IMG/VR virus record: IMGVR_UViG_3300030107_003634
Coordinates: 16,443-62,499 of that record
Source: a virus
DNA: 46,057 nt
Strand: one strand, 5' to 3'
Translations under genes and position numbers: made by a program
Part shown: in pieces, positions 26,373-33,785 of the stretch
How positions within the stretch are numbered: position 1 is the stretch's first letter
Layout of the letters: the number at the start of each line of letters is the position of its first letter
Notes under the pieces: model-generated
What the model was told of the DNA's origin: nothing
What the model saw: the letters and a program-made list of their open reading frames with translations, nothing else
The model's database searches: none

Positions 26373-27404
26373 ATGAGAAATTTAATAATTATATTTTTAT
26401 TGATGTCTATATCTGTTAACGCACAGATAGAGGACTTTTTAAAATACTCTACGTTTTATACGTCAATGAGTATGAATACTTCTTTTTCAGAAAGAGAAGA
26501 TTATATAGCGATTGATAAAGGTTATGAAAATGTTACTGAAATACACCCTTACGATTTTAACATAACTTTTGGAATCCGAAAAATAGCAAGATTTGATTAT
26601 GAATACAAAGTTAAAACATGGTATTACGGCACTGAAAAAGCCGTTGCAGACAACGTTACTATTGGTAATGCTACTGGTTGGGAGTATTTACTTAATTATT
26701 CGTTTATACGTAATCGTGGCAATAGTTTTACTGAGCAAAATTTCTGGCTTAGATACTTGGGAAATAGATGTGTAACAAAATTACAATACACTGATAATCA
26801 AAGGGTTGACTTAAAATACAGTTCTTTTGACACAAGGTACAGAATAACAAAAGGTAATTGGGATTTTACAATCGGAATGTGTTTTCGTATACATGACCCG
26901 TATGGCATAAATCCTATTGAGGATTTTTGGACTCCAGGAGAATCTACTTTTAATCAATTAGCTGGAGATTTTGGATATTCTACTCAGTATGTTCAGGGTC
27001 AGTGGCACTGGTTTAATAGTGATAGTGAATTAATATCTACCTCAAATGATGAGTTTTTTAAACATTATTTTGGAGATGCTGTAGCTAGTTTTAATGAAAG
27101 AGAATTAGAAAAACTAGGGTTACAAAAAGAATTAAGTGCGGTTATGGGCGTTGCTTATTATAAGTATACACCAACCTTTTGGATGCACGCATGGGGAAAT
27201 ATAATGCCTTATCATTATGGATTAGATGACTACTCTTATGAATACGGGCAAGATAATTTAGACTTTTTAGAATGGGACGCTGGTATAGTTTTAGGTGTTC
27301 GTGTTAATAAACACTTAGGTTTATTTGTGGAAGGAACTCATATGAACTATTGGATGAAGCCTGTTTTTGATGTTAAGTTTGGGTTTAACTATTTAATATT
27401 TTAG
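26373..27404 (+). CDS. Exported outer-membrane beta-barrel-like protein
   Basis: This 343-aa protein starts with a Sec signal peptide (RNLIIIFLLMSISVNA, cut before Gln). The mature part is made of alternating polar and aromatic strands (many Tyr, Phe, Trp) and ends GFNYLIF. A terminal Phe after amphipathic strands is typical of outer-membrane barrels folded by BamA. It has no long hydrophobic helix. It probably inserts in the host outer membrane during infection, for instance to block superinfection or alter the envelope, but its purpose is unknown. It begins a block of exported proteins and appears to have its own promoter. Confidence 0.65.
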   Translation: MRNLIIIFLLMSISVNAQIEDFLKYSTFYTSMSMNTSFSEREDYIAIDKGYENVTEIHPYDFNITFGIRKIARFDYEYKVKTWYYGTEKAVADNVTIGNATGWEYLLNYSFIRNRGNSFTEQNFWLRYLGNRCVTKLQYTDNQRVDLKYSSFDTRYRITKGNWDFTIGMCFRIHDPYGINPIEDFWTPGESTFNQLAGDFGYSTQYVQGQWHWFNSDSELISTSNDEFFKHYFGDAVASFNERELEKLGLQKELSAVMGVAYYKYTPTFWMHAWGNIMPYHYGLDDYSYEYGQDNLDFLEWDAGIVLGVRVNKHLGLFVEGTHMNYWMKPVFDVKFGFNYLIF

Positions 27405-27407
27405 CGT

Positions 27408-28148
27408 ATGAAAAATTTACTATTATTATTTGTTTTTGTAAGTTCATTTTCTTTTGGACAAGATTATGACTACCAGCAATTATGTTTAGACTGTGCTGAA
27501 CAAAATGGATTTTATTGTGGAGATGACCCATCTAACTGGACGCAATATGCTCCATTAGGGTGTGTGCAAACATCTTGGATTAACGATGGGTGGATAGATT
27601 GTGTCGATGCCAGCGATGAGGGCGCTGATGTGGTGCCAACCTTACCTTTAGATTGTATACCGCCTCCACCAGATTGTGATACTGTATATGTAGATGTGCC
27701 AGTCTTTGTATATGAAACTATTTTCCAAACAGACACTATATATAATACAGAATATATAACTCAAATAGTAGTAGATACTATAATAGAAACTGAATATGAA
27801 ACTATATTTGAAGAAATATTTGTTACAGACACGTTATGGATGGAAGGAGCGTTAGATACTATGTTTATAGACGTAATAGAATATGTAGATGTATTTATCT
27901 TTGATACAATAGTAGAGATAGAAACAGAATATATAGAATTTTTTACTACAGATACTATAATAGAATATGTAGAAATAATTAATACAGAGTATATTGATTG
28001 TGATACAGGAATGCCTTGTAACTCAAATATACCTGAATTTAATAAATCTGAAGGAGATAATAGAATATATGACTTGTTAGGAAAAGAAATAAGAGAACCT
28101 AGTGGATTATATATAGAAGATGGAAAGGTTAAGTTTAAAGTAAAATAA
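27408..28148 (+). CDS. Secreted protein with LDLa-like domain and T9SS-like C-terminal signal
   Basis: This 246-aa protein has a Sec signal peptide (KNLLLLFVFVSSFSFG, then Gln). A cysteine-rich domain follows, with GWIDCVDASDEG near residues 61-72, matching the calcium-binding end of LDL-receptor class A repeats. Next is a long acidic Thr/Tyr/Ile-rich linker with repeated DT(I/V) units (about 90-200). The C-terminus reads RIYDLLGKEIREPSGLYI, close to the short type IX secretion sorting domain of Bacteroidota (YDLLGxE ... GxYI). The protein would cross the inner membrane by Sec and be sent to the cell surface by the host T9SS. It starts four bases after the beta-barrel gene. Function at the surface unknown. 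Confidence 0.65.
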   Translation: MKNLLLLFVFVSSFSFGQDYDYQQLCLDCAEQNGFYCGDDPSNWTQYAPLGCVQTSWINDGWIDCVDASDEGADVVPTLPLDCIPPPPDCDTVYVDVPVFVYETIFQTDTIYNTEYITQIVVDTIIETEYETIFEEIFVTDTLWMEGALDTMFIDVIEYVDVFIFDTIVEIETEYIEFFTTDTIIEYVEIINTEYIDCDTGMPCNSNIPEFNKSEGDNRIYDLLGKEIREPSGLYIEDGKVKFKVK

Positions 28149-28149
28149 T

Positions 28150-28524
28150 ATGTATCATTATAATGCAACCCTAGTCAGAGTAATAGATGGAGACACTGTT
28201 GATGCTATGATTGATTTAGGTTTTGACATACAAGTTAAAAAAAGAATTAGATTGGCTGGTATTAATGCTCCAGAATCTAGAACTAGAAACAAGGTTGAAA
28301 AAAAATTAGGACTAGCGGCAAAAGAAAGATTGATAGAATTAATGGAGGGAGCTGCGAATGTTTTTGAATTAGAAAGCAAGGAGGTCGGTAAATACGGAAG
28401 AATACTTGGCGTTATATATATCAACAAATTATCTGGAAAGGATACAATAACCCAAGCATGTATTAACGAAATGCTTGTTAGTGAGGGCCACGCTACGGAG
28501 TATGATGGTGGCAAAAGGATTTAA
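28150..28524 (+). CDS. Staphylococcal nuclease-like (thermonuclease) protein
   Basis: This 124-aa protein is a compact SNase domain. It shows IDGDT (Asp15 is the metal ligand equivalent), RIRLAGINAPE (Arg34, Glu42) and YGR (Arg84). The usual second Asp in the D-x-PE segment is Asn39 here, as in some other phage and bacterial relatives, and the protein may still be active. It would cut DNA or RNA with calcium. No signal peptide is visible, so it acts in the cytoplasm, perhaps on host DNA, unless released at lysis. It follows the T9SS-like gene with one base between. Confidence 0.8.
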   Translation: MYHYNATLVRVIDGDTVDAMIDLGFDIQVKKRIRLAGINAPESRTRNKVEKKLGLAAKERLIELMEGAANVFELESKEVGKYGRILGVIYINKLSGKDTITQACINEMLVSEGHATEYDGGKRI

Positions 28525-28543: not shown

Positions 28544-28783
28544 ATGAAAATTTTTAAAGACAATAATGACTGGAATGAAAAAGCTATAGTTGGTTTTATT
28601 GCATTCCTTATTATGTGCATGATTATGATGGCTGATATGATTACAGGATGGATGGGTATGGACTTGGTTATAAACAAGTTTGTATACGATTCATTTGTGT
28701 GGATTGTATTAGGTTGCTTTGGTATTAGCGGAGTTGAAAAATTCGCTAAGAAAAATTGCGAAAAAAATTGTGACAAAAAATAA
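28544..28783 (+). CDS. Two-helix small membrane protein, holin candidate
   Basis: This 79-aa protein has two likely membrane helices (about 15-36 and 43-63) and a short basic/cysteine tail (KKNCEKNCDKK). Size, topology and placement near lysis-type genes fit a holin or antiholin. No family is recognised. A second holin candidate (3TM type) is encoded on the other strand at 32560-32949. Confidence 0.5.
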   Translation: MKIFKDNNDWNEKAIVGFIAFLIMCMIMMADMITGWMGMDLVINKFVYDSFVWIVLGCFGISGVEKFAKKNCEKNCDKK

Positions 28784-28841: not shown

Positions 28842-29186
28842 ATGGCAAAAGAGTTTTCAGAGGATAGTAAATTTAAAATAAGTATTAAAACCCTTGCTTG
28901 GATAATAGCTGGGGTATCTGCTGTTATAGCAGGATATTATGGAATGCTTTCTAATATAAATTCTAAATTTGTAGAACTTGAAACTAAAGTTCAAGAAGCT
29001 TTAGAAAAACCTAAACCAGGAACAGGTACTTATACTATAGATATGGGAGACCCTGCCGCATCACAAACATGGCCACCAACAAGAATGGAGTTTAATATGA
29101 AGGATGAGATGGCTAGACAGAAAATTGATAATATAATAAAAGAATTAGATGAACTTAAAGATGAACTTAAAGACCTAAAAAAATGA
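28842..29186 (+). CDS. Inner-membrane anchored coiled-coil protein, i-spanin candidate
   Basis: This 114-aa protein has one N-terminal membrane helix (about 17-37) and no signal cleavage site. A periplasmic-sized domain follows with a Pro/Gly linker (EKPKPGTGTYT), then a charged coiled coil (IKELDELKDELKDLK). That topology matches inner-membrane spanins. Its last codons overlap the next gene by four bases (ATGA), like the overlap of Rz and Rz1 genes. The function is inferred from layout; no sequence family was recognised. Confidence 0.45.
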   Translation: MAKEFSEDSKFKISIKTLAWIIAGVSAVIAGYYGMLSNINSKFVELETKVQEALEKPKPGTGTYTIDMGDPAASQTWPPTRMEFNMKDEMARQKIDNIIKELDELKDELKDLKK

Positions 29187-29584
29187 CAAAAAGAATAGAT
29201 ATTACAAGCTTTTTATATGCGTTATTAATGATATTAATATTTGCTTGTGGTACCGCTTTTAGTCAAGATTTTATTTCCTCTGATAACTTTAAAAATAAAA
29301 TAGCCAAAGATATTGTTGTAGTTGAGTTTTGGGCTGGATGGAACTCACAAAATGAGTTTAAAGAATTAACAAAATTAAATGACTGCATAACTTATAGAAT
29401 AGATATATCAAAACACATGGACGTTCAAATGAAGTATGATGTTTCTGCTATACCTACAGTTATTATATTTGAGAATGGAATACTAAAAGAAAAGTTTGGA
29501 GCCACTGTAATGTTTCAGTTAGACGCTGACAAGAAAACCGTACAAAACTCCATTGACACATTATTACTAAATAAATTTAATTAA
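29183..29584 (+). CDS. Exported thioredoxin-fold protein without the CxxC pair
   Basis: This 133-aa protein has a signal sequence that could be cut by signal peptidase I (AFS before Gln28) or read as a lipobox (IFAC, Cys22). The rest follows thioredoxin order: VVVEFWAGW, then the cis-proline turn AIPT (Pro91), then IIFENG and a C-terminal helix. The active-site pair is replaced by Asn54 and Asn57 (WNSQN), so disulfide chemistry is not expected. It could bind peptides, act as an envelope chaperone, or be the outer partner of the spanin-like protein it overlaps. Confidence 0.6.
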   Translation: MTKRIDITSFLYALLMILIFACGTAFSQDFISSDNFKNKIAKDIVVVEFWAGWNSQNEFKELTKLNDCITYRIDISKHMDVQMKYDVSAIPTVIIFENGILKEKFGATVMFQLDADKKTVQNSIDTLLLNKFN

Positions 29585-31070: not shown

Positions 31071-31580
31071 ATGAAACTAGAGGTATATAGAATATCTAGC
31101 GGAGAGGATTCTACTTCTGGAATTATGTTTGAGGTAGAAACAGTTAATAATCCTTATGGAGAAGGATTTAGATGTAAAAAGAATTTTTTGTGTTACACAT
31201 TAGAAGATGAGAAAAGGGAAGAGAAAAAGATGGGTGAAACAAGAATACCAGCGGGGACTTATGATTTATCTCTTAGAACGGTTGGCGGTTTTCACAAAAA
31301 ATATAGCAAGAGGTTTGGTGATAGTCATAGGGGTATGCTTCATGTGCTTAATGTTCCTGGCTTTGAGTATATTCTTATTCACTGTGGTAATACTGACGAG
31401 CACACGTCTGGGTGTTTACTTGTTGGGGACTCCCAGGAAAATAACCAAATCAAGAAGGACGGTTTTATAGGAAAATCAACTCAGGCTTATAAAAGGATAT
31501 ATCCTAAAATAGCTGAGGCTTTAGAAAAAAAAGAACAGGTAACTATAACTTATATAGACTTTGATAATATAAAAGAATAA
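31071..31580 (+). CDS. DUF5675-family endolysin-like protein
   Basis: This 169-aa protein contains the conserved order of DUF5675: FLCYTLEDEKR, GETRIPAGTYDL, His75, SHRGMLH (His86), VPGFEYILIHCGN (His104) and TSGCLLVGD (Cys115). The His...GC pattern resembles L,D-transpeptidase or cysteine peptidase sites, and the family is often found in phage lysis regions. It probably cuts or modifies peptidoglycan. There is no signal peptide, so it needs a holin to reach the wall. It lies between the two related small structural proteins. Confidence 0.7.
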   Translation: MKLEVYRISSGEDSTSGIMFEVETVNNPYGEGFRCKKNFLCYTLEDEKREEKKMGETRIPAGTYDLSLRTVGGFHKKYSKRFGDSHRGMLHVLNVPGFEYILIHCGNTDEHTSGCLLVGDSQENNQIKKDGFIGKSTQAYKRIYPKIAEALEKKEQVTITYIDFDNIKE

Positions 31581-32949: not shown

Positions 32950-33403
32950 AACCAAATTTATTTTTAATTATATTTACAGTCTCCAAAACCTGTGTCTTGG
33001 TTCCTGGCATATAAAGTTCGTAATTTAAATCATTCTTTACAAGATAGTTTTTAAATAACTTCCATCGTAAATTAAACGCCTCTGTTCTAAGTCCTTTACA
33101 CTCTATTATCCAACCATCTTTTATGTTAGTAAAATCTGGTAAATAGGTCGCTTGAGCTATTTTATTACTAACCTTAACAAAAGTGTTTTTACCCTTTTTC
33201 TTTTTCTTCTCATGGCAATCAGCTTCATATTTGAAAGAGTCTATAATAACAAACCTTTCTTTTTCGTAGCTAAAGGGAATTGAATTTAATTTAAGTTGGT
33301 TGTAAGTAAATAACTCAAGCTTGGACCTAAATTTTAAAGAACCTTTTCTAGCTCTTGTTGCGTTCCTTATTTTTTTATTTATGAACCTCTTCATATTCTT
33401 CAT
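32927..33403 (-). CDS. PD-(D/E)XK endonuclease, T7 endonuclease I-like
   Basis: This 158-aa protein shows FRSKLELFTYNQL (Glu30), YLPDF (Asp90) and IIECKG (Glu101, Lys103), the E...PD...ExK layout of T7 endonuclease I and related DUF1064-type phage nucleases. The N-terminus is very basic and suits DNA binding. It may resolve branched or recombining DNA before packaging. Start could be 33403 or Met4 at 33394; both overlap the preceding gene (by 29 or 20 bases). Confidence 0.65.
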   Translation of the reverse strand: MKNMKRFINKKIRNATRARKGSLKFRSKLELFTYNQLKLNSIPFSYEKERFVIIDSFKYEADCHEKKKKKGKNTFVKVSNKIAQATYLPDFTNIKDGWIIECKGLRTEAFNLRWKLFKNYLVKNDLNYELYMPGTKTQVLETVNIIKNKFGYAKRSIK

Positions 33404-33785
33404 CTAATTCTTTTATAAACCTATATTCTGTAGACTTTCTATACCAATGAGTGTCTTCGTCTAAATCATGAAATATCATAATACCCTCTAGGTCTTCAGA
33501 CCAAACAACCCTATTTCTGTTTGACATTATATAGGTTTGATAATTTTGATATATACCTATATAGGTCCAGGGATAATATCTTCCTATCAGTTCATCATTG
33601 TATATCCTCAGCCCATTCTCATCTACATGTAAATAAGCGTACTCACCAAGAATAAATGATTCATGCTGAATAACACCTTCCCATATATCGCAGTATATAA
33701 TTTCATCTGTATAATAAGTACCTTCCTTAATTTGGCTATACAACTGAGACGTAAGAAGTATAGCTAGTAATAACATTTTTCTCAT
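33375..33785 (-). CDS. Exported protein of unknown function
   Basis: This 136-aa protein has a classic Sec signal peptide (RKMLLLAILLTSQLYS, then Gln). The mature part is acidic and aromatic (many Tyr, Trp, Glu), with no cysteines after the first third except Cys32. It would be periplasmic or surface exposed. It is the only exported protein in the leftward (early) half, placed between two nucleases, so it may act early in infection, for example in envelope change or exclusion. No family recognised. Confidence 0.6.
   Translation of the reverse strand: MRKMLLLAILLTSQLYSQIKEGTYYTDEIIYCDIWEGVIQHESFILGEYAYLHVDENGLRIYNDELIGRYYPWTYIGIYQNYQTYIMSNRNRVVWSEDLEGIMIFHDLDEDTHWYRKSTEYRFIKELDEEYEEVHK

Follow-up and report, generated by a model that had tools for sequence, protein, structure and literature searches.

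A predicted secreted protein of marine flavobacterial phages pairs with an outer-membrane barrel and ends in a candidate minimal type IX secretion signal

A marine phage of probable flavobacterial host, together with more than 100 relatives, appears to carry a secreted protein whose C-terminus is a shortened label for the type IX secretion system (T9SS) and that is, from its gene context, always paired with a putative outer-membrane barrel. This barrel-paired protein suggests that the viruses re-dress the surface of the infected cell. The window analysed here is a stretch of 46,057 nucleotides and forms part of a 62,499-base virus record (IMGVR_UViG_3300030107_003634), in which genes for terminase, portal and major capsid protein can be identified. 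The latter protein shares 28-31% identity with its counterparts in Maribacter phage Panino and the Flavobacterium elemo phages, and Cellulophaga phages match too. The isolates with the nearest capsid proteins have Flavobacterium, Cellulophaga and Maribacter as hosts, which makes a flavobacterial host likely here as well.

The features of the protein under study and of its neighbours are collected in Table 1. A preliminary description of ORF 27408-28148 had named a Sec signal peptide, a cysteine domain, a DT-repeat linker and a distinctive C-terminus, and all four were found as quoted. The signal peptide reads MKNLLLLFVFVSSFSFG followed by Q, the LDLa-like cysteine stretch reads GWIDCVDASDEG and the C-terminal stretch reads RIYDLLGKEIREPSGLYI; the ten residues that follow the latter, up to the stop codon, are part of the same tail module. 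Homologues are encoded in 44 viral contigs at 46-86% identity, with an identical order of parts wherever the protein is complete, so that the architecture is not a product of chance. The n/h/c pattern of the signal peptide is common, by sequence, to all complete LDLa-type homologues. Across 30 aligned sequences, the positions without variation are mostly cysteines, calcium-type acidic residues and residues G225, I228, Y235, I236 and G239 of the tail. In the family the linker opens with CDT and ranges from 8 to about 168 aa while its ends are conserved, as expected for a spacer between two functional ends. The AlphaFold model has a mean pLDDT of 45, with values mostly of 65-80 in the LDLa region and of 23-29 over most of the linker. 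Foldseek returned six matches to this model, of which the top two are LDLa receptors at E 2.8-4.2, insufficient when taken alone. Pfam and PHROG scans of the protein gave nothing usable.

Table 1. Coordinates of the protein under study, its parts and its cassette neighbours (positions in the window)
Feature	Position	Strand	Remarks
Exported LDLa-like / DT-linker / mini-CTD protein (predicted)	27408..28148	+	246 aa, ATG to TAA
Sec signal peptide, residues 1-17	27408..27458	+	from sequence; cleavage expected before Q18
LDLa-like cysteine module, C26 to C83	27483..27656	+	PDB profile and PF00057
Calcium-cage motif W57-x-N-D60-G-x-x-D64-C-x-D-x-S-D70-E71	27576..27620	+	pattern in 91/91 distinct sequences
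DT-rich linker	27675..27986	+	length variable in family; low predicted order
Conserved EYxDCxTGxPC two-cysteine element	27987..28019	+	invariant E194, Y195, D197, C198, G201, P203, C204
Mini-CTD, 28-aa C-terminal tail with motifs B, D and E	28062..28145	+	alignment, cellular CTD profile ranking, unrelated N-termini
Putative phage-specific outer-membrane beta-barrel	26373..27404	+	343 aa, signal peptide, C-terminal Phe; immediately upstream of the protein under study
Small membrane protein, two hydrophobic segments, holin-like in form	28544..28783	+	79 aa; usual cassette member
Protein with N-terminal membrane segment and coiled-coil-like part, spanin-like in form	28842..29186	+	usual cassette member
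Exported thioredoxin-fold protein lacking CXXC	29183..29584	+	PF00085 E 6e-9; usual cassette member

The cysteine-rich module is supported, at the level of sequence, as LDLa-like, that is, as a non-canonical LDLa. A family profile matched 42 chains among PDB sequences (best E 0.007), all of which we take, from their names or from general knowledge, to be LDL-receptor-type modules or molecules containing them. PF00057 matched 25 of 30 family members, with a best E of 4e-4. The calcium cage is kept, with small variations, in all of the 91 distinct LDLa-type viral sequences, and so is the tail pattern described below. With these three results the LDLa reading of the preliminary description holds in the form LDLa-like. 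The comparison with LDLa models that it had proposed gave matches for those 25 members; the window protein itself gave no match to PF00057, and the phage members inspected individually scored 14 bits, under the gathering cut-off of 24.1. The module shares with PF00057 the W-x-x-D-G-x-x-D-C-x-D-x-S-D-E spacing and the flanking cysteines, but it differs by Asn in place of C4, an extra N-terminal CxxC, an insertion between C2 and C3 and extra cysteines. At the fourth-cysteine position, Asn is found in 90 of the 91 sequences and Gly in the remaining one, and the canonical set of six cysteines, paired C1-C3, C2-C5 and C4-C6, is therefore incomplete. At one locus outside the 91 (L210), D-E-W-E-D-C replaces D-G-W-E-D-C (E for G). 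The nearest cellular relative is a secreted Crocinitomicaceae MAG protein of 1,123 aa with two LDLa copies. It reaches 26.8 bits with PF00057 (cut-off 24.1) and bears a canonical Por_Secre_tail C-terminal sorting domain (CTD) scoring 36.2 (cut-off 27). Since this relative joins an LDLa module to a canonical CTD, a host T9SS cargo is the likely source of the phage protein.

Type A CTDs carry motifs A to E across 70-80 aa. In alignment, the tail of the phage protein matches motif B (IYDLLGKEI), motif D (SGLYI) and motif E (KVKFKVK), and it is without motifs A and C. The family consensus is YNLxGQxIRxPEGxYIENGKIKYK. The conserved part measures 28-35 aa in all homologues and so falls short of a complete Ig-like, seven-strand domain of about 70-80 aa. 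What it shares with TIGR04183/PF18962 domains is the Sec signal on the same protein, a beta-strand signal at the extreme C-terminus, the GxY and the terminal basic strand; like the carriers of these domains, the hosts of the phages are likely Bacteroidota. Unlike them, the mini-CTD has 28 aa against 70-80, lacks the PNP motif A as well as motif C and lies under model detection. Indeed, when the C-terminus was compared with TIGR04183, as the preliminary description had advised, no match was obtained at E up to 10 in the window protein or in the phage genome, and PF18962 behaved likewise. Nor did the Pfam sorting-domain model match any of 30 family members. The curated models miss the tail because motifs A and C are lacking.

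We therefore relied on a CTD profile derived from 24 CTDs that came from three cellular genomes. In a full-length and two shorter versions, it was used to search the C-terminal 40 residues of 1,319 distinct phage ORFs. The top ranks were taken by five canonical phage CTDs and then solely by mini-tails of the family studied here. With the full profile the first unrelated C-terminus came at rank 45, and with both shorter ones it fell outside the first 45. For the window's own tail, the version restricted to motifs B, D and E gave rank 12 (E 0.0086), and the remaining versions placed it lower. By contrast with this ranking, profile-profile alignment of the tail with the CTD was weak: hhalign gave a probability of 39% with motif B alone aligned, and one of 200 column shuffles scored equally high. 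Taken together, these two results indicate a likeness that is specific but short. That motifs B, D and E lie at the very C-terminus is borne out by the profile ranking and by the pattern in 91 of 91 sequences, the profile-profile check being weak. We infer that the protein works like type A cargo, although it is not a member of TIGR04183. In Porphyromonas gingivalis, the last 22 residues of the HBP35 CTD, which hold motifs D and E, suffice for export of GFP, and motifs B, D and E are modelled as contacting PorV (PMC10202324, PMC4804311). That the 22-residue result was obtained in Porphyromonas and not in Flavobacteriia counts against the T9SS reading.

Searched against the PDB, the tail profile gave chance matches. 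Against 150 cellular genomes of one order its matches were mostly internal or due to chance, with one real C-terminal case, L081. This is a secreted protein of cellular genome G038 ending in MYDLLGRELKEAPFRQLYIQNGKKLFRIE, a mini-CTD-like tail outside phages, and it hints that short CTDs may exist in hosts too.

The tail also occurs on other proteins. A search with the tail alone found 168 viral loci, and most of the 80 kept are LDLa-type. Among the rest are Sec proteins of 166 aa (L148, L150, L151, L153, L154) and lipobox proteins of 188-195 aa (L152, L155, L166), which have a DT linker and the same tail and are without the LDLa module. Judged by sequence, the tail is thus a module carried on three kinds of N-terminus. 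A lipobox on three tail proteins fits poorly with ordinary T9SS cargo and speaks against the simplest T9SS reading. The N-termini of the lipobox proteins (L152:3536-4102, L155, L166:532-1119) read ..LLLAGCGLFxPxxYNPNP..CCD. A 62-aa lipoprotein at L148:691-879 shares this N-terminus without the tail; the lipobox N-terminal module thus appears to be shuffled between proteins. In annotated phages and plasmids, tblastn found no homologue of the protein under study, of its barrel neighbour or of the alternative tail protein.

We then considered the barrel gene, which the preliminary description had missed. Its AlphaFold model (pLDDT 75.7) shows about 12 long membrane-type strands, and Foldseek matched it to outer-membrane barrels exclusively, generic ones at low TM. 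The barrel is linked to the tail protein in every family locus in which that side is sequenced. A search starting from the barrel gave 257 relatives; the best 80 were examined, 76 of them with enough downstream sequence, and a tail protein lies downstream in all 76, immediately next in 69. As the best 80 are the closest barrels, this linkage is a statement on that clade, in which the barrel is an obligate partner. No barrel homologue was found in 199 cellular genomes of one order, a result that is weak for want of a positive control, though the profile does match phage records. Pfam gave no match for 18 barrels and there was no PDB sequence match. By these searches the barrel does not fall into the PorP/SprF family, and it shows no sequence relation or specific fold relation to PorV or SprF. 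Distance matrices for barrel, LDLa, tail and thioredoxin-like protein showed that barrel and tail distances correlate no better than those with the thioredoxin-like control. The gene of a type B CTD cargo clusters with the gene of its cognate PorP/SprF barrel (PMC10202324). The phage pair resembles this arrangement in that a cargo gene is clustered with a dedicated outer-membrane barrel gene; it departs from it in that the tail is type A-like and the barrel is unrelated in sequence, has about 12 predicted strands and stands upstream of the cargo.

The proteins of the record with a hydrophobic N-terminus are nearly all encoded in one cassette (genes starting at 26373, 27408, 28544, 28842 and 29183). 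It sits behind a giant late-type gene with a 3,056-aa virion-type product, whose apparent positional counterpart in Flavobacterium elemo phages is annotated as structural. The 79-aa membrane protein has no significant family match, and its coiled-coil neighbour matches the Rz-like spanin PHROG 739 at E 0.015 only. Barrel, LDLa-tail protein and thioredoxin-fold gene occur together in 98 contigs. The thioredoxin-fold protein, found in most cassettes, has VEFWAGWN in place of the CXXC active site and is possibly a binding protein or chaperone for cysteine-rich cargo. Within the cassette, 28150-28524 encodes a Staphylococcal-nuclease-like endonuclease (PF00565, PHROG 452), the position of which differs among relatives. 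Near it lies the gene of a DUF5675 protein (31071-31580; PF18925, PHROG 1501), conserved in many related loci and perhaps lysis-related. Outside the cassette and on the opposite strand, 33375-33785 encodes a small protein with a signal-peptide-like N-terminus.

In sister phages, the barrel homologue is preceded by a gene whose product, about 1,000 aa long, combines GCTD-type cysteine repeats with a canonical type A CTD. With TIGR04183 (cut-off 23), the CTDs of this cargo score 40.7 bits in L148 and 41.9 bits in L154, and whole-record searches gave 43-46 bits in six of 49 records. In G158, where the start of the cargo was read, it has a Sec signal peptide. The barrel homologues (E about 1e-80) start about 10 to 800 bases from the CTD cargo. 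One such Sec/GCTD/CTD gene of about 1,000 aa, running from L192:17153-20000 into L154:3-1160 (IMGVR_UViG_3300030101_002520), lies directly before the barrel gene, and similar genes are present in five other phage records. In the largest sister record, of 115 kb, the large terminase is split over both ends, which makes it probable that the phage is complete and circularly permuted; a thioredoxin-like exported protein is encoded just upstream of the cargo. By sequence, then, the place beside the barrel is held by a bona fide T9SS cargo in one lineage and by the mini-tail protein in the other. Of the circumstantial arguments that the mini-tail takes the same route, this occurrence of canonical cargo in the corresponding position is the strongest. 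Overall, the export through the host T9SS that the preliminary description had proposed draws support from the CTD-profile ranking, from the reuse of the tail and from the sister CTD cargo, and none from the TIGR04183 test.

The explanation that we favour, and to which as a whole we give even chances, is Sec export followed by passage through the host T9SS by means of a minimal signal, anchoring by the barrel and display of the LDLa module at the surface. The protein would be a late phage product leaving the host cytoplasm by Sec. The host T9SS would then carry it across the outer membrane by a minimal type A-like signal consisting of motifs B, D and E. The cognate phage barrel would most likely receive or anchor it, as PorV, PorQ or PorP/SprF do for host cargo, and a long flexible stalk would hold the LDLa-like calcium module out from the surface of the infected cell. 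Among these steps, T9SS-dependent export can be called well supported as a deduction from sequence; Sec export, late expression, contact or anchoring between barrel and tail and surface display are presumed. Against the explanation stand the missing matches to curated models, the lack of motifs A and C, the weak profile-profile alignment, the three lipobox proteins, a barrel unrelated to PorV or SprF and barrel-tail distances that correlate no better than the control. The displayed module might most plausibly mask or remodel the surface and thereby limit superinfection or re-adsorption of progeny. In phage-resistant F. columnare, the T9SS/gliding genes sprA, gldM, gldK and gldN are hit (PMC9233685), so that T9SS-made surface structures matter for infection there; this makes a block of superinfection or re-adsorption the most economical proposal. 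Surface remodelling, probably for superinfection exclusion, is nevertheless a guess. The phages may even possess a T9SS branch of their own, with the barrel as a private shuttle or anchor that takes minimal-CTD cargo through the host T9SS and retains it at the surface, where LDLa, GCTD repeats and other display modules could be interchanged, an idea that we regard as possible but doubtful.

Because holin-like and spanin-like genes are close by, lysis is the main rival. The barrel and the tail protein would together disrupt the outer membrane in place of an outer spanin, alongside the holin-like and spanin-like membrane proteins encoded beside them, and the tail would dock on the barrel in the periplasm instead of signalling export. 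An Rz/Rz1 system consists of an inner-membrane coiled-coil spanin and an outer-membrane lipoprotein; here the coiled-coil neighbour has the Rz-like match at E 0.015, and the window protein has no lipobox. In the lysis reading no exported protein would need to exit the periplasm, some tail proteins bear a lipobox as outer spanins do, and the cassette stands at the end of the late genes beside the two-segment membrane protein and the coiled-coil protein with its weak Rz-like match. That match is insignificant, however, and the membrane-gene neighbours are not always adjacent, whereas the barrel is. In addition, the tail is specifically CTD-like, canonical CTD cargo adjoins the barrel in sister phages and a calcium-binding LDLa module on a stalk of 8-168 aa suits display better than membrane fusion. 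We consider lysis unlikely. It is still harder to see the tail as a coincidental short beta-hairpin on a protein that is simply periplasmic: the motif is short, the profile-profile score weak and a model match absent, as convergence would have it, but the top CTD-profile ranking, the strict C-terminal position in homologues, the modularity and the canonical CTD neighbours make this highly improbable.

Two other readings give the tail a different task. As a decoy held by the barrel in the periplasm or outer membrane, the protein could occupy CTD-binding sites and block export of host adhesins that serve as phage receptors, so that superinfection would be excluded by jamming. The tail retains precisely the motifs for which contacts with PorM and PorV are reported (PMC10202324), the N-terminal half of the domain being missing, and loss of T9SS function accompanies phage resistance in F. 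columnare (PMC9233685). Yet a decoy would leave the conserved LDLa module superfluous, and the equivalent site of the sister phages holds a fully equipped canonical CTD cargo; we find this account improbable. The protein could also be a virion component with a hydrophobic N-terminus, such as a fibre decoration, its tail being a structural or chaperone-recognised tag. Its gene does lie just behind that of the 3,056-aa virion-type protein, and the elemo-phage counterpart by position is annotated as structural. A cleavable Sec signal and a cysteine-rich module are, however, ill-suited to assembly in the cytoplasm, the partner gene encodes an outer-membrane barrel and, among cellular proteins, the closest relative is a secreted T9SS cargo, which renders a place in the virion quite improbable.

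The preliminary description had regarded T9SS export by a phage as an unusual viral strategy. The strategy itself has a precedent: in 2020 a phage-encoded T9SS cargo was described in Cryophage, where a role in superinfection exclusion was suggested (PMC7468147). Gut phage clusters encode T9SS-domain proteins as well (PMC6949934). Common to these cases and ours is that phages encode proteins addressed to the host T9SS and, with Cryophage, that superinfection exclusion is proposed. As presented in the available portions of the two papers (PMC7468147, PMC6949934), those proteins have canonical sorting domains on enzymes or on PA14/BACON proteins, and no mini-CTD, LDLa module or dedicated barrel is described for them there. 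Our literature search likewise found no mini-CTD below detection, no LDLa-like phage module and no dedicated barrel. The new part is thus the combination of mini-CTD and dedicated barrel cassette. If the T9SS reading is true, a large group of marine flavophages uses host surface export with a signal that annotation models miss, and the extent to which phages remodel the surfaces of flavobacteria is greater than now appreciated. Outside Porphyromonas, the mini-CTD would also offer a natural way to find out which portions of the T9SS signal are indispensable, and the retention of T9SS cargo at the surface could be approached simply by way of the phage barrel.

A second shared C-terminal tag was observed in phages of the L152/L154 type. 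Small basic proteins encoded in runs (L152:2707-3528, L154:2726-3611 and similar) end in (A/I)(V/I)GPN(G/K/N/R)(V/I)L.
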